Under the pieces are notes generated by a model that saw only the letters and a program-made list of their open reading frames with translations, made no database searches and was not told where the DNA came from. A stretch of DNA of 64,000 nt from Clostridia bacterium (lineage in GTDB: Bacteria; Bacillota; Clostridia; UBA1212): positions 62,001-126,000 of the forward strand of contig JAFSVU010000008.1 of assembly GCA_017444825.1 (NCBI GenBank), in the 5' to 3' direction. The position numbers and the translations under genes were made by a program. Within the stretch, counting starts at the first letter, position 1. Each line of letters begins with the position of its first letter. Below, piece after piece: positions 7,175-55,075 of this stretch.

Positions 7175-7203
7175 ATTATATTATCGCGCGAGGGAAGAGT
7201 CAA
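7175..7203 (-). promoter_or_regulatory. Promoter for dockerin/transglutaminase-cinA-ysxC-lysA operon
   Basis: Minus strand: -35 TTGACT at 7203-7198, exactly 17 bases, -10 TATAAT at 7180-7175. It is divergent from, and almost touching, the esterase promoter at 7209. Confidence 0.82.
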
Positions 7204-7208
7204 GAATA

Positions 7209-7237
7209 TTGACAAAGCCTGCCCCGGTACATATAAT
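7209..7237 (+). promoter_or_regulatory. Consensus promoter for the alpha/beta hydrolase
   Basis: Perfect -35 TTGACA (7209-7214), 17-base spacer, perfect -10 TATAAT (7232-7237). A leader of about 24 bases would follow, with GGAGG at 7258-7262, five bases ahead of the start. Confidence 0.88.
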
Positions 7238-7267
7238 TTCCATAACAAATCTATTCCGGAGGTCTGT

Positions 7268-8149
7268 ATGATAGAAACAAAACGAATCGATTTAACGGAC
7301 GACGGACGGGTAAATCTCACTCCTTACGTCCTTGATTTCAGTCCCGAGCTCCCCCTCTCCGTATCACGGCCTGCAGTTGTGGTAATACCCGGCGGCGGTT
7401 ACCAGGGATGCTCCGACAGGGAAGGCGAACCGGTGGCCATGGCCTTCGCGGCTCAGGGATTTAATACCTTCGTACTTCGTTACTCCGTAGGTAAATACGC
7501 TTCATTCCCGAATCCTTTGATAGATCTTATGAAAACGATGAAGATCATCAGGGATCACGCCGAAGAATGGCACACAGACCCGGGTAAGATCGCTGTCGTT
7601 GGCTTCAGCGCAGGCGGACACCTGGTGGCGTCACTTGGCGTTTACTGGAACGACGAAAAGATACTTGCAAAAGCGGGAGTCAAGGCCTCCGAGGCAAAGC
7701 CGAATGCTCTCATCCTTTGCTACCCCGTTATATCTTCCGGAAACCGCAGGGAGCCCGGGACCATTGCCACTGCCGCTGCGGGTCACGATGAACCGGATAT
7801 ATATGACGTGCTTTCACTTGAAAAACACGTTGGGCCCCACACGCCGCCCTGCTACATCGCCCATACGTTTTTTGACTCGGTGGTGCCAGTGGAGAACTCA
7901 CTCCTTTTTGCAAGTGCCCTTGCCGAGAACAACGTTCCATTCGAGCTTCACGTGACTCAGGACGGTGTTCACGGCCTTTCGGTAGCGGACCACGTGACTT
8001 CGATAGGACCGTTCCTTCACAACAGCGCCTTCTCCGCATGGGTGAAGGGATCAGGCGAGTGGATGAAGAAGCTGTTTGAGTTTAAAGCCCCACCTGATTT
8101 TGAGTACGAGACCGCATTGAGACGCACAAGAAAATTCGATCTTATCTGA
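7268..8149 (+). CDS. Alpha/beta hydrolase, acetyl-esterase/lipase type
   Basis: A 293-residue cytoplasmic alpha/beta hydrolase of the acetyl esterase (carbohydrate esterase-like) group; no signal peptide is seen. The oxyanion-hole motif PGGGY is at residues 41-45, the nucleophile is S114 in GFSAGG, the acid is D203 in FFDSVVP and the base is H235 in DGVHGLS. Such proteins remove acetyl or other ester groups from xylo-oligosaccharides or similar small esters, in keeping with the glycan-related genes further right, though the substrate is inferred. It is a single-gene unit with its own consensus promoter and terminator. Confidence 0.9.
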   Translation: MIETKRIDLTDDGRVNLTPYVLDFSPELPLSVSRPAVVVIPGGGYQGCSDREGEPVAMAFAAQGFNTFVLRYSVGKYASFPNPLIDLMKTMKIIRDHAEEWHTDPGKIAVVGFSAGGHLVASLGVYWNDEKILAKAGVKASEAKPNALILCYPVISSGNRREPGTIATAAAGHDEPDIYDVLSLEKHVGPHTPPCYIAHTFFDSVVPVENSLLFASALAENNVPFELHVTQDGVHGLSVADHVTSIGPFLHNSAFSAWVKGSGEWMKKLFEFKAPPDFEYETALRRTRKFDLI

Positions 8150-8177
8150 CTTTTTTCGTGAACTTGATCAAAAACAC

Positions 8178-8214
8178 ACCCGCCCGGTTCGGCTGTCGGA
8201 TCGGGCGGGTTCTT
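8178..8214. terminator. Bidirectional terminator between esterase and mgtE
   Basis: Nine-base perfect stem ACCCGCCCG/CGGGCGGGT (8178-8186 with 8202-8210). T-rich tracts follow on both strands, so it can end both the plus-strand esterase and the minus-strand mgtE transcripts. Confidence 0.88.
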
Positions 8215-8235
8215 TATAATCTCAGTATACGGTTT

Positions 8236-9765
8236 TCAGGCGCCAAAGCCCATGACCGAAATCAGGAGTATCCAGCAAAGACCGTAATAAGTTACAACTG
8301 CTATAAGGTCGTTCATTGACGTGATCAACGGACCGGAGGCAACAGCGGGGTCGATCTTAAGCTTCTTGAATATGAGCGGAACAAGAGTTCCGATGCCGCT
8401 GGCGATAAACATGGCTGTGATCAGCGCAATACCTGCGCAGCCCGACACTCCAAAGGAGAAAAGCCAGGTCTGATGCTTTATAAAGTGGATGTAAAGGCCG
8501 AGGGCAACAAATGAAAGAGATCCTATTATGCAGCCGTTCAAAAGACCGATCCTTGTCTCTTTAAAGAAAAGCTTCAGCTTCTTTTTGAAATCCAGGTTTT
8601 CGTCGGTGAGTACCCTGATGGTTACAGCCAGGGACTGGGTGCCGGAGTTTCCTGCCATGTCCAGAATCAGCGACTGGAAGGCCATAACTATCGGCAATGT
8701 TTTGACAACGCCTTCAAACGTTCCCACGACTGTGGAGATCACTATGCCGAGACCCAGGAGGACGAAGAGCCACGGTAGCCTTTTCCCGAGACTGGTCCAG
8801 ATGGATTCGTTAAGATCGACCTCTGAAGTAAGACCTGCGAACTTAACGTAGTCTTCGGTCAGCTCGTCGCCAATGACCTCAACGATGCTCTGGGACGTAA
8901 TGACGCCAAGGATCCGGTTGCTGTTATCAAGGACCGGAATTGAATTCTCCGAGTAATCTCTGAGCCGTTCGATACACTCATCAATGCTCTCTGTGCCGTA
9001 AACGTAAGGGAACGATGTGATGATGATGTCGTCAAGCGGTGTTGAGTTGCGGGCTATGATCAGTTCCTTCAGGTCGATAGCGCCGCAGAATATTCCGTTT
9101 TCGTCCACCACGAATATGGTGGAGATATTGTCGTTTTTCTCTGCCTGCTCCACCAGCTCGTTCATGGCTTCCTTTACGGAAAGCTTGTCGTTGATGACAA
9201 TGAAGTTGGTGGACATCTTGCTTCCGATCTCATCCTCGTCAAACGAAGCAATGAGCTCGATCTCTTCCTTCTTCTCGTCATCGAGAAGCTCGATCATGAG
9301 TATTCGTCTGTCCCGCTGTATCTCCCTGAGGATCTCCACCGCAACGTCAGTTTCCATGAGTGACAGGATTTTTGCGGCCTTGGTCAGGTCCATTTCGGAA
9401 AGATAAACGCTAACCGCATCCGATTCCGAATACTCAAACACAGCCGAGAGCATGTCCGTATCGAGGATCCTGTATATCTTTCTCCTCTCCGCTACGGTCA
9501 GTTCCTCCAGCACACCGGAAATGTCGTTTTCGTGGTAGGACTCAAGCTTGTCTTTTACCGCGCGCGGCGTGTAGTTGCCCCTGATTATCTCAATGATCTC
9601 TTTTGCGTAATCAGGCTTTACAAGCTCAACGTCCTCCTCGTCACCGTCATGCTCATCGCCGGTATCCTCTTCGAGCAAATTAGCAAGATGCGCATTCTCC
9701 TCGGATTCCTCCGCCTGCGCCCTCAAGTTTTTGGTTTTGATATCTTCTTCGTCAAATTGCTGCAT
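8236..9765 (-). CDS. mgtE: Magnesium transporter MgtE
   Basis: A 509-residue Mg2+ channel/transporter of the MgtE family in the cell membrane. An acidic N-terminal extension precedes the MgtE N domain (superhelical repeats, about residues 50-180), a CBS-domain pair (about 190-310) that senses cytoplasmic Mg2+, and five membrane helices (about 330-509) with the pore signature around MAGNSGTQS. A GTG three codons upstream is possible, but ATG 9765 is better placed behind GGGGGTGG. It has its own promoter and an unusually long leader. Confidence 0.96.
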   Translation of the reverse strand: MQQFDEEDIKTKNLRAQAEESEENAHLANLLEEDTGDEHDGDEEDVELVKPDYAKEIIEIIRGNYTPRAVKDKLESYHENDISGVLEELTVAERRKIYRILDTDMLSAVFEYSESDAVSVYLSEMDLTKAAKILSLMETDVAVEILREIQRDRRILMIELLDDEKKEEIELIASFDEDEIGSKMSTNFIVINDKLSVKEAMNELVEQAEKNDNISTIFVVDENGIFCGAIDLKELIIARNSTPLDDIIITSFPYVYGTESIDECIERLRDYSENSIPVLDNSNRILGVITSQSIVEVIGDELTEDYVKFAGLTSEVDLNESIWTSLGKRLPWLFVLLGLGIVISTVVGTFEGVVKTLPIVMAFQSLILDMAGNSGTQSLAVTIRVLTDENLDFKKKLKLFFKETRIGLLNGCIIGSLSFVALGLYIHFIKHQTWLFSFGVSGCAGIALITAMFIASGIGTLVPLIFKKLKIDPAVASGPLITSMNDLIAVVTYYGLCWILLISVMGFGA

Positions 9766-50170: not shown

Positions 50171-52120
50171 TCAGCTGTTTGCGATAACGGCAAAGTCCGG
50201 AACCTTGAGGCTGGCTCCGCCTACAAGGCCGCCGTCGATATCCGCCATTGAGAAGAGACCTGCCGCATTCTTAGCGTTGCAGGATCCGCCGTACTGGATG
50301 GTGATGACGGATGAAACGTTCTTACCGTAGAGCTTCTCAATAGTGTCGCGGATCACTTTGCAAACTTCCTGTGCCTGGTCGTCTGTAGCAGTGAGGCCTG
50401 TGCCTATAGCCCAGATCGGCTCGTAAGCAATGATGATGCCTGCAGCCTGGTCGTCGCGAACGCCGTTAAGAGCGTATTCTACCTGGTAGGAGACGAGCTC
50501 ATTGGTCACGCCTGCAAGCCTCTGATCTTTGGACTCGCCAACGCAAACGATAGGAGTGATCCCGTACTTCAGGGCCTGTTTAACCTTAAGGTTGACAGTC
50601 TCGTCTGTCTCGTTGTAATACTGACGTCTCTCGGAGTGGCCGATGATAACGTATTTAACGCCAAGGTCACAGAGCATCTCAGCGGATACTTCGCCGGTGT
50701 AGGCTCCCTTGTCGTGGTAATCCATCGTCTGAGCGGCGATGCTGATATTTGTGCCTTTTGCAGCTTCAAGTGCAGCGGGAATTGCCACAAACGGAACTGC
50801 GCAGATCACCTGATTTTTGGCATCCTTTACGGCTTCTGCAAGCTCTTTGATGAAAGCTGCGGCCTGAGAGGGTGTCTTGTTCATCTTCCAGTTGCCCGCT
50901 GCAACGATCTTTCTGTCCTTGTTCTCAAGGCAGGAAATGCCGGGGAGATCTCTTCCCTCGAGGAACTCAAGGGATGCGCCGCCGCCGGTGGAAATGTGGC
51001 TGATGGCATCTGCAAAACCAAGCTGCTCGACTGCAGCCGCGCTGTCTCCGCCGCCAACGATGGTAGCCGCGTCCGCGTCAGCCATAGCCTTTGCGACTGC
51101 AATGGTTCCTTTTGCAAGGATCGGGTTCTCAAATACGCCCATAGGTCCGTTCCAAACAACCGTCTTAGCGTTCTTCACTTCTTCTGCGAAGATATCGCAG
51201 GTCTTGGGGCCGATGTCGCAGCCCATTCTGTCTGCGGGCATTGAATCTACCGGGTATACCACCGTGTCAACGGGAGCGTCGATGGGATTCGGGAACTCTG
51301 CGATAGTGACAGCGTCCACAGGAAGAAGCAGCTTCTTACCGAGCGCCTCAGCCTTTTCGATCATCTTTTTGCAGTAGTCAAGCTTTTCGTCGTCGCAGAG
51401 AGACGTGCCGATGCCGTAGCCCTGAGCTTTCAGGAACGTGTAAGCCATTCCGCCGCCGATGATGAGTGTGTCGCACTTTTCAAGCAGACTGGAAATAACA
51501 GTGAGCTTATCCGCAACCTTCGCTCCGCCGAGGATGGCCACGAAGGGGTGCTCCGGGTTGTTGACGGCATTGCCGAGGAATTTGATCTCTTTCTCGATAA
51601 GGAAGCCTGAAACTGCCGGGAGGTAGTCTGCGATGCCCGCTGTAGTAGCGTGGGCTCTGTGAGCGGTGCCGAATGCGTCGTTAACGTAAAGCTCAGCCAT
51701 CGAAGCCAGCTCTTTTGCAAAATCAGCGTTGTTTTTCTCTTCCTCTTTGTGGAATCTTGCGTTTTCCAGCATCATGATCTCGCCGGGCTTCAGCGCTTCT
51801 GCCTTGGCTTTTGCATCGGGACCAATGACGTCAGTTGCCTGGATAACTTCCTTTCCGAGGAGCTCTGAGAGTCTCTTTGAAGCCGGAGCCATGGAATATT
51901 TCATGTTGAACTCGCCCTTCGGTCTTCCCAGGTGGGAAACGAGTATCACTGCCGCATTTTTGTCAAGCAGATATTTGATCGTAGGAAGCGCACCGACGAT
52001 ACGCTTGTCGTCGGAAATATTTCCTTCGCTGTCAAAGGGAACGTTGAAATCAACGCGTACGATTACTTTCTTGCCGGCGCAGTCGATGTCGGCGATCGTT
52101 TTTTTGCAATAATAAGCCAT
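50171..52120 (-). CDS. pgk-tpiA: Fused phosphoglycerate kinase-triosephosphate isomerase
   Basis: A 649-residue single protein with two glycolytic enzymes. Residues 1 to about 395 are phosphoglycerate kinase ([37 protein letters not shown]). Residues about 403-649 are triosephosphate isomerase (GNWKMNK with the active-site Lys, [10 protein letters not shown] with His, [11 protein letters not shown] with Glu, [10 protein letters not shown]). The junction [12 protein letters not shown] is short. The reading frame is continuous with no slippery site needed. ATG 52120 has AAAGGAG ahead; an upstream in-frame start is unlikely. Confidence 0.95.
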
Positions 52121-52137
52121 TACTTTGATCTCCTTTA

Positions 52138-52151
52138 TGTGAAAATTCACA
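52138..52151. promoter_or_regulatory. Palindrome in pgk-tpiA leader
   Basis: Perfect 14-base palindrome TGTGAAAATTCACA lies between the -10 box and the ribosome site. It resembles CRP/FNR- or Rex-type half-sites, but the spacing fits neither exactly; it may also form a small RNA hairpin. Confidence 0.45.
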
Positions 52152-52245: not shown

Positions 52246-53745
52246 TCATTTGTTGTTGAGAGCATTCAGATACGCGGCAATACTCGCCTCGAAAATATTG
52301 ACGCTGACGCCGTAGCCTTTAACCACCTTATCGTCAATTGAAATCTTAACGCTCACGGCACCCTGGGCATCCGTGCCGCCGGTAACGGACTCGATCATGT
52401 AATCCAGCAGCTTCGCATCCGTCTTAAGCGCGTCATTTATAGCGTTGTAGGCAGCGTCGATAGGACCTTCACCCGTGGCAAACCCGTCGAAGCCTGTGCC
52501 GTCGCTCTTCACTATGCGGATGTTGCATGTGTTGGACAGCACGTTGCCGGAATTGATTATATACTTGTCCAGCCTGTATTCGCCGGTAAAATCAAGGAGC
52601 TCCGCTCTCACCAGGGCTTCGATGTCCTTGTCCGAGACCACTTTTTTGGCCTCCGCCACAAGTTTGAATTTTTCGAAAAGCTCGTCCACCTGCTCTTTTG
52701 TCAGGCTCGTGAAACCAAGCACCGCCAGCCTCTCCTCGAGGGCGTGGCGTCCCGAATGCTTTCCCATAACGATCTTGCTCTCCGCAAGACCAATGTCCTC
52801 AGGGTCTATTATCTCATATGTCCTTCTGTCGGCCATCATGCCGTGGACGTGGATGCCCGATTCATGGGCAAATGCGTTTTTACCAACTATAGCCTTGTTA
52901 GCCTGCACCTTTACGCCTGTCAGCATGACCAGCTTCCTGCATGCGGGCACTATGAGCTTTGTATTTACATCGGTATAGCACCCGTAGTGGTCCTTCCTGG
53001 TTTTGAGCGCCATCACAGTTTCTTCAAGGGATGCGTTGCCGGCTCTCTCACCAATTCCGTTGACCGTCACGTCCACTCTGTCGGCGCCCGCCAAAGCAGC
53101 GGCAAGAGTATTTGCCGTAGCAAGACCCAGGTCGTTGTGGCAGTGGACTGAAAGTTTGTATTCGGGGCCGCCCGAAAGGCCTTCTTTTAGGAAAGTCACA
53201 AGCTCCCTGATCTCTTCCGGCTGGATGTAGCCGACAGTGTCTGCGATATTCAGGATCTTAGCGCCGCTTGAAAGAGCTGTTTTAAGCACCTTGAGCAGGA
53301 AATCCCGGTCTGATCTTGTGGCATCTTCGGCGGAGAATTCCACCTCAGGGCAAAGGGAAGCCGCGTAGGACACGACTCTCGCAACTGTCTTAAGGACTTC
53401 TTCTCTCGTGGAATGAAGCTTTTGGGAAATATGGAGGTCCGAGGTGGCGATGAATACGTTAAGGAGCGGCTTTTCGGCACCCCTTAAAGCGTTCCAGGCT
53501 ATGTCGCAGTCTGACTCCACGCATCTGCATAGAGACGCAACTGTGACGTCCTTGATCTCATCCGCGATCCTTTTCACGCACGCGTAGTCGCCCTGGGAAC
53601 AGGCCGCAAAACCCGCCTCGATAACGTCCACGTTGAGCGAGCGGAGCATTCTGGCCATGGAAAGCTTTTCGGCAAGATTCATGGAAAAACCCGGTGACTG
53701 CTCACCGTCACGAAGGGTCGAATCAAAAATCTCAATCTTCCTCAT
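52246..53745 (-). CDS. leuA: 2-Isopropylmalate synthase
   Basis: A 499-residue enzyme joining 2-ketoisovalerate and acetyl-CoA, the first leucine-specific step. The TIM barrel starts [14 protein letters not shown], then [14 protein letters not shown] and [14 protein letters not shown]; residues about 385-499 form the leucine-sensing regulatory domain. AGGTGG stands seven bases ahead of ATG 53745. It is 43 bases after the aldolase gene. No T-box leader is seen. Confidence 0.93.
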
Positions 53746-53788: not shown

Positions 53789-55075
53789 CTAAAACTTAAA
53801 CGCCTTATGCAGCTCGTCCACCTCTTCATTGGTTATTGCGACGATATTGCCAATGCCTTTGGACGCGAGGATGGCCTTGGCGCTGTATTCCATGACCTCC
53901 AGCTTATCAAACGCATTGAGGAGGCTCGCACCGGTTACCAGCACGCACTCGTTCTTGATGAGCACTATTGGCGTCATGTGATCGATGGTGTCGCTTACGA
54001 GCTTGTGATTCTTGAAGCTGACGCCAAAGGGAAGCTTTTTCACGTCCCTCAGCATTATGTAAGACTCGGGAATGGTCCTTGAGTCAAACTCGGCATCGGT
54101 GACCGCGAAGGCCATGATGTGGGGGGAATGGGCAATGATAATGGAGTTGATCTCCGGATGGTCGTCGTATATCTTCTTGTGAAGGAGTACCGAACCCGAA
54201 GGCGTCTTCCCCTGCTCGCACATCGTTCCTCTTACGTGCACCAGGTCCTCCGGCTCCATGTATTTTCTGTCCTTGCCGTGGGGAGTGATCAGGAATGAAC
54301 CGTCGGAGAGCCTCTGGGAGAACGTGCCCTGGGTGCTGGTGAAAAGCTGCTGGCGGTATGCTCTTGTTATGAACTTGACCATGTCCCGGCGGGCCGCTTT
54401 TTCCTCGGAGGTCATGTTTTTGTTAATGAACTCGTCGAGTACCGCAGGCTGCTTCTCCTTCGAGAGAGCCACGTCCTCGTCGGTGAGCGCGGATATCTTT
54501 CCGAGCTTCTGACCCTCGATCTCAAGTCTTGCGCAGAAATCAAACGTCTCGAAGGCTTTGAACGCGCCGAATATATCCTTGGATCCAACAAATACGCCGT
54601 GGTTTTCGAGCATAACCACGTTGTGGCCTTCGCCGAACTTGGCGGATATCTTTTCGCTGAGACCGACGCTTCCCGGCACGTCATACGCGGCAAAATCAAC
54701 GCTTCCGCAAACGTGGGCTACATTGGGCACAAGTCTCGTCTCGGGAATGCGCCTGACTATACTGAAAGCCACCAATGCCGGGGGATGTGCGTGGAGCACC
54801 GCATGGAGATCGGGCCTCATCTCGTATATCTTTTTATGCACGGGAAACTCGCTCGAAGGCTTGTGATTTCCGCAAACTGTGCCGTCGGGCTTCACCCTTA
54901 CTATGTCGTCTCTTGTCAGAGAACCCTTGTCAATAGATCCCGGCGTGATCCAGATATCGCCGTTTTCGTCAAGGATCGAAAGGTTTCCGCCGCTGGTGGT
55001 GGTCATACCGTATGAGTATATCCTCTCCATCATCATTACGAGCTGATCCGCGGGATGTATCATTGAAAAATCCAT
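53789..55075 (-). CDS. Tandem class II aldolase/adducin-domain protein
   Basis: A 428-residue protein with two class II aldolase/adducin-type domains. The N-terminal one (about residues 5-200) has all metal ligands of the family: Glu in SSEFPVHKK, H-x-H in LHAHPPAL and His in ENHGVF. The C-terminal one (about 230-425) keeps the overall layout but has SGSVLLHKK, IIAHSPHI and IKNECVLV, losing most ligands. Probably a sugar-phosphate aldolase or decarboxylase; the second half may be structural. GGAGG ahead of ATG 55075. It follows the L,D-transpeptidase gene by 27 bases. Confidence 0.88.
   Translation of the reverse strand: MDFSMIHPADQLVMMMERIYSYGMTTTSGGNLSILDENGDIWITPGSIDKGSLTRDDIVRVKPDGTVCGNHKPSSEFPVHKKIYEMRPDLHAVLHAHPPALVAFSIVRRIPETRLVPNVAHVCGSVDFAAYDVPGSVGLSEKISAKFGEGHNVVMLENHGVFVGSKDIFGAFKAFETFDFCARLEIEGQKLGKISALTDEDVALSKEKQPAVLDEFINKNMTSEEKAARRDMVKFITRAYRQQLFTSTQGTFSQRLSDGSFLITPHGKDRKYMEPEDLVHVRGTMCEQGKTPSGSVLLHKKIYDDHPEINSIIIAHSPHIMAFAVTDAEFDSRTIPESYIMLRDVKKLPFGVSFKNHKLVSDTIDHMTPIVLIKNECVLVTGASLLNAFDKLEVMEYSAKAILASKGIGNIVAITNEEVDELHKAFKF

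Follow-up and report, generated by a model that had tools for sequence, protein, structure and literature searches.

Why should a bacterium carry, within a single polypeptide, two copies of a class II aldolase domain of which the second is stripped of most of its metal-site ligands? The question is raised by a gene lying within a 64,000-nucleotide stretch of DNA from a Clostridia bacterium, a stretch referred to here as the window. An initial annotation had described the gene as a duplicated class II aldolase with a decayed second half, forming a fused pair of one active and one inactive domain that could act as a scaffold for half-of-sites oligomers or sense a substrate. The features discussed below are the following.

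53789-55075, minus strand: open reading frame encoding the class II aldolase tandem (428 aa and a stop codon)
54446-55075, minus strand: half 1, residues 1-210, FucA-like with site residues intact (Pfam match at 11-185; match to 1fua)
53792-54415, minus strand: half 2, residues 221-428, with the fold of a class II aldolase and an incomplete metal site
54599-54985, minus strand: half-1 site residues N31, E76, H95, H97 and H159, kept in 42/42 rows
54128-54193, minus strand: half-2 residues S295, I314 and H316, at the positions of the FucA Glu, His and His
53948-53950, minus strand: half-2 residue E376, at the fourth ligand position
54059-54073, minus strand: half-2 loop IPESY, residues 335-339, proposed to reach to the half-1 active site
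53792-53830, minus strand: half-2 C-terminal helix and end, residues 416-428, including F426; putative contact with half 1

Two aldolase domains and one complete metal site

The translated frame at 53789-55075 contains a single stop codon, the terminal one. Aldolase_II (PF00596) is the only Pfam family found in the protein, where it matches two stretches with 223.9 bits against a curated cut-off of 22.2, so that membership of the family is established by sequence profile. Scored separately in the genome, half 1 gives 143 bits and half 2 gives 85.5 bits. The two halves also align with each other (79.0 bits, 27% identity across 192 residues), and none of 500 shuffled versions of half 2 exceeded 23.5 bits against half 1. 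The paired domains that had been noted at this locus are confirmed by the two Pfam stretches and by this alignment.

Structure prediction, which had been proposed as a check, gave a confident single-chain AlphaFold model of the tandem (pLDDT 90.8, pTM 0.89), with a helix at residues 416-425. Half 1 superimposes on E. coli FucA (1fua) with a Z score of 25.3 and an rmsd of 2.8 over 200 residues, while half 2, modelled alone (pLDDT 87.1), matches 1dzv with a Z score of 22.9 and an rmsd of 2.6 over 177 residues. Both halves have the class II aldolase/adducin fold, which they share with FucA and with the related aldolase 6btd/6btg. No solved tandem structure was seen among the Foldseek and VIA-align matches listed, which are single class II aldolase domains.

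Site residues were read from an alignment in which E. coli FucA was set beside each half of 42 tandem proteins; two further rows, truncated by contig ends, were excluded. The FucA residues N29, E73, H92, H94 and H155 correspond to half-1 N31, E76, H95, H97 and H159, and all five are retained by half 1 in 42/42 rows. The zinc-dependent class II aldolase ligand set, three His and the catalytic Glu, is thus complete in half 1 throughout, as had been noted for the window's protein, and in both fold and chemistry half 1 is an ordinary class II aldolase. The same five columns in half 2 of the window's protein hold T251, S295, I314, H316 and E376, meaning that the Glu and two of the three His are gone and only the middle His stays. 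Across the family, these columns are Thr in 41/42 rows, Ser in 39/42, Ile in 33/42 and His in 40/42, and the H155 column is mostly Asp (36/42), otherwise Glu (4), Phe (1) or His (1). The strings IIAHSPHI and IKNECVLV, quoted in the initial annotation for the second half, are present in the translation as given.

For a wider count we used 44 distinct aligned tandem rows, the window's own included, of which 43 reach all of the half-2 ligand positions. This set omits the loci L030-L042, most of which come from genomes already represented, as well as L049, a 60-residue fragment. The ligand set is complete in half 2 in 0/43 covering rows, and the catalytic Glu and the first His are absent in 43/43. 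At positions 294/295/314/316/376, most rows read R-S-I-H-D, whereas the two Persicobacter rows read N-L-F-Q-F and D-V-S-Q-H, one of them thus having His at position 376.

Distribution, age and selection

The tandem gene was found in 28 of the 58 relatives searched, the window's genome included (E 1e-40). Within the window's genus it occurs in 4/6 genomes; of the two that lack it, one is only 77% complete. Among 398 genomes drawn from the phylum, it occurs in nine (E 1e-60), namely the window's own, seven of genus g166 and one more. It was also found in Paenibacillus algorifonticola (L044; among 20 loci) and on two plasmids of Persicobacter (Bacteroidota), which were the sole one-piece, full-length matches among 20 plasmid records listed. 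The rows thus come from Clostridia-type genomes, Paenibacillus and Persicobacter. A survey for homologues of equal length, another check that had been proposed, found 42/44 rows at 426-433 aa, the remaining two being cut by contig ends. No homologue with both halves intact was found among the 43 covering rows, window included, which supports the description of the protein as a fused active-inactive pair.

Mean pairwise identity among the rows is 67% in half 1 and 64% in half 2. Values of dN/dS lie at 0.013-0.057 for half 1 (8/11 pairs computable) and at 0.018-0.091 for half 2 (10/11 pairs computable), synonymous sites being saturated in the remaining pairs. Both halves are under strong purifying selection. 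As dN was higher in half 2 than in half 1 in 9/11 pairs and dN/dS is still low, half 2 is somewhat freer but not decaying. The word decayed, as first applied to the second half, finds no support in these values or in the invariant residues that half 2 has of its own.

In a maximum-likelihood tree of 73 rows, 18/18 half-1 rows form one clade (100/99) and 18/18 half-2 rows form another (100/100), with Persicobacter separating from the other rows within both. Because each half forms a single clade and the Persicobacter split is repeated in both, the pairing likely goes back to one old event that preceded the spread of the gene, and the loss of ligands from half 2 is, as far as these sequences indicate, an old trait of the family. 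A supported group (100/97) unites the two halves with 11 single-domain rows. Either a duplication or a fusion of close paralogues would fit this grouping of the halves with their nearest single-domain enzymes; a fusion of two different families was considered and rejected on the same grouping. Searched alone, half 2 has as its best model the epimerase-named PRK06557, at 76.8 bits against a cut-off of 251.

A possible contribution of half 2 to the half-1 active site

The active site of FucA is described as being formed with an adjacent subunit, with Tyr113' lent by the neighbour (PMC11841055, PMC5434028), and in class II aldolases the C-terminal helix is reported to touch the adjacent protomer (PMC12599920). 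The corresponding loop and tail were compared between the tandem halves and a set of 43 single-domain enzymes, FucA among them. Over three loop columns near FucA position 113, defined as those aligned with the DDF of a second tandem family (T2, discussed below), Asp or Glu is found in 32/43 single-domain enzymes and 42/42 half-2 rows, but in only 1/42 half-1 rows. When Asp, Glu or Tyr is counted over five loop columns, the figures are 42/43, 42/42 and 3/42, respectively. The half-2 loop reads IPExY, with E337 in 43/43 rows and Y339 in 42/43 (Trp in one Persicobacter row), and the half-1 counterpart of E337 is Asn in 38/44. Close to the end of half 2, F426 is found in 43/43 rows. A regular-expression count of the half-2 tail motif, at 30/42, was discarded as an artefact of an inner helix.

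In the Persicobacter proteins the half-2 pocket is changed, but both rows retain E337 and F426, and one of them Y339 (W in the other). Such a pattern is to be expected of a half that is maintained for the sake of what it supplies to half 1. Half 2 probably has a lasting job, most likely in helping to build the active site of half 1, and we consider the chances roughly even that it completes that site, so that each pair would have a single live one. Every FucA subunit consists of one domain and has both sides of the site; in the tandem, the two sides are apparently divided between the halves. The protein would be a metal-dependent sugar-phosphate aldolase on a single chain, its work divided between two FucA-like domains. 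The half-1 and half-2 domains of packed chains would alternate around a FucA-type ring, the live site comprising the half-1 metal centre together with the IPExY loop and C-terminal helix of half 2, and the mirror-image site would be dead. The scaffold for half-of-sites oligomers suggested in the initial annotation fits this arrangement, which may sharpen it into a composite-site mechanism.

Several details of the alignments speak against the composite site. Y339 falls outside the FucA Tyr113 column in all three alignments, neither tandem half having Tyr in that column, and E337 lies approximately one column off the acidic pair. The alignment of the tail is unstable, such that the Tyr209 column is occupied by the half-2 Phe or by half-1 F216 (Phe in 36 and Tyr in 4 of 42 rows) depending on the alignment. 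Given this instability, half 1 may lend an aromatic residue too. The conservation of the half-2 pocket in rows other than those of Persicobacter, and the His at 376 in one Persicobacter row, likewise count against the composite site.

Other roles for half 2 have to be weighed against the composite site. Half 2 could be an allosteric pseudo-site that binds a phosphate compound through T264, S293, R294 and R270 and thereby tunes half 1. The phosphate-side positions of half 2 partly match those of FucA, and T264 and S293 are kept in 44/44 rows, R270 in 43/44 and R294 in 40/44; conservation of the pocket outside Persicobacter suggests that it has some use. However, R294 is replaced by Gly in the window's protein and in its closest relative (95% identical), and by Asn or Asp in Persicobacter, where the pocket residues are replaced in both rows. 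The earlier proposal of substrate sensing is thereby weakened, and we regard such a site as unlikely.

A purely structural role, in which half 2 would hold half 1 in the ring and lend nothing to catalysis, is also improbable in our judgement. The intact fold and the strong selection would suit any packing role, but retention of an acidic/Tyr loop in half 2, alongside its loss from half 1, would be left unexplained. It seems considerably more doubtful that half 2 is a second enzyme that uses an altered metal site, made of H316 and D/E376, for a different reaction: both positions are conserved in 41/43 covering rows, but no covering row retains the catalytic Glu or the first His, and both Persicobacter rows have Gln in place of H316. 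Finally, a pseudogene-like decay or sequencing defect local to the window's genome, to which the absence of R294 from the window's protein and the relative nearest to it (as also from Persicobacter) might point, can be dismissed as very improbable, since the Glu and first His are missing from 43/43 covering rows, 42/44 rows are of near-equal length and purifying selection is strong.

A second tandem family, present in other genomes, bears on the proposal that half 2 completes the half-1 site. The T2 set comprises 15 rows:

L132, 1048-2241, minus strand: T2 tandem
L133, 5941-7128, plus strand: T2 tandem
L134, 6525-7625, plus strand: T2 tandem
L177-L188: twelve T2 loci

Twelve of the 30 loci retrieved entered the set; the others were single-length, partial or doubtful. 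A further T2 copy, in G413, lies outside it. The T2 tandems are 366-464 aa long as called, and the second half of L188 is damaged. All five site residues are present in 15/15 first halves, and among the second halves H94 and H155 are missing in 15/15 and H92 in 10/15. A DDFAQ loop is present in 15/15 second halves and a tail Tyr in 14/15. The split between the T2 halves is not clean, however, as Glu is found at the E73 column in 12/15 second halves, H92 persists in 5/15, and 8/15 first halves have Asp or Glu in the loop. Three T2 proteins included in the tree fall outside the half-1/half-2 group, on long branches with weak forks, and T2 likely has an independent origin. We tentatively propose, at somewhat less than even chances, that class II aldolases have on at least two occasions given rise to fused pairs with a dead second member. 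This member would have lost its own metal ligands and be retained to supply catalytic elements from the neighbour side, a symmetric ring of equal sites thereby becoming an alternating one with a single live site for each pair; the loop acid in 8/15 T2 first halves lowers our estimate for this two-family reading.

Adducins, which are eukaryotic actin-binding proteins unlike the bacterial tandem, have one aldolase domain per chain. Their aldolase domains are described as non-enzymatic and tetrameric (PMC12599920). Trypanosomatid prozyme/AdoMetDC and deoxyhypusine synthase pairs offer a case in which a dead copy is reported to support an active one (PMC5201418, PMC3663545), although these are separate proteins of unrelated folds, in which activation was measured rather than proposed as it is for the tandem. 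In an open library of papers, searches for class II aldolases that are duplicated, joined in tandem or catalytically dead listed no title or abstract opening that describes the tandem family. What appears to be a broken gene copy offers a testable case of a shared active site dividing its labour after duplication, and tandems of this kind would allow the metal side and the lent side to be altered independently of each other within one chain.

Gene neighbourhood and candidate substrate

From gene context, we predict that the substrate is probably a 6-deoxyhexulose-1-phosphate, perhaps L-rhamnulose-1-phosphate, since the tandem lies near rhamnose genes in Persicobacter, in one Clostridia-level genome and in two g166 genomes. 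The reaction would yield DHAP and L-lactaldehyde, or something close. Neither the FucA models of NCBIfam (PRK06833, 161.7 against a cut-off of 264; TIGR01086, 93.8 against 400.25) nor the RhaD model (PRK03634, 62.6 against 170) assigns the protein, all scores being below cut-off.

In the Persicobacter locus L059, the tandem comes last in a row of genes that starts with a RhaT-like symporter and continues with RhaA (above cut-off), an FGGY-type kinase and a lactaldehyde-reductase-like enzyme. In L058 the order is a GH92 hydrolase, a rhamnose-type isomerase, a kinase and the tandem; in both, the neighbours other than RhaA and GH92 score below NCBIfam cut-offs. In L064, the tandem lies near a RhaS-like regulator, RhaA and a RhaE-like aldolase. 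RhaA was found in 8/8 tandem-bearing phylum-level genomes tested (seven of g166 and G379). In the two g166 regions examined, the tandem and rhaA bound a single run of about 12 genes, several of which were named by eye. The content of this run fits Csac_0865-0876 of Caldicellulosiruptor saccharolyticus, which is reported to be up on rhamnose and to hold a rhamnose isomerase and a rhamnulose-1-phosphate aldolase (PMC4187192); we infer that g166 is Caldicellulosiruptor.

In the window's genome, RhaA lies on a different contig from the tandem, and there are no rhamnose genes beside the tandem in the window. A RhaB-like (rhamnulokinase-like) kinase is found at G000:C19:60311-61693 (L207), 308 bases before the window starts, with 482.9 bits against a cut-off of 527.95. 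The genome has one other class II aldolase, a single-domain protein at L122 (G000:C42:40001-60000), which means that the rhamnulose-phosphate aldolase of this organism may be a protein other than the tandem. At L122, this aldolase lies beside a glycyl radical enzyme (TIGR01774, 751.8 bits) and small shell-like proteins recognised by eye, resembling a microcompartment for deoxysugar use. The use of deoxysugars by this organism is likely, because its genome holds RhaA, the RhaB-like kinase and the other aldolase with its glycyl radical enzyme. The tandem is a candidate for an aldolase step still unassigned in deoxysugar-using anaerobes.

Across the relatives, RhaA occurs in 24/28 tandem-bearing genomes and 13/30 others, a comparison that ignores kinship and includes a few RhaA matches that are fragments; in the 27 class-level genomes alone, the figures of 3/4 and 8/23 do not differ significantly. 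RhaE-type genes occur in 23/28 tandem-bearing genomes and 4/30 others (6/30 with two doubtful genomes), again ignoring kinship and with calls that are weak PF00596 scores, mostly on long open reading frames. The RhaE-type loci run against NCBIfam (L060, L064, L124 and L126 only) all score far below the curated cut-offs, and no RhaE-type gene was seen in the window's genus.

The class II aldolase RhaE/RhaEW, which has been described in rhamnose pathways (PMC3870299), has a PF00596 domain as the tandem does. In RhaEW the aldolase is fused to a dehydrogenase, whereas in the tandem it is fused to a second aldolase, and no RhaEW model appears among the tandem's best 25 of 30 model matches. A RhaE-like gene is close to the tandem in L064 and adjoins it in L060, where the RhaE-like gene (7197-8276, minus strand) overlaps the tandem (8273-9559, minus strand) by four bases, an overlap which suggests that the two are made together.

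A conserved operon was sought and rejected, as no gene cluster besides the tandem occurs in more than four of 26 sequences (25 loci and the window). The window shares leuA as the next gene with L030, L032 and L068 of its genus only. Two genes downstream of the tandem, with leuA (52246-53745) in between, a phosphoglycerate kinase fused to a triosephosphate isomerase is encoded at 50171-52150 on the minus strand (PRK13962, 980.2 bits; cut-off 883).
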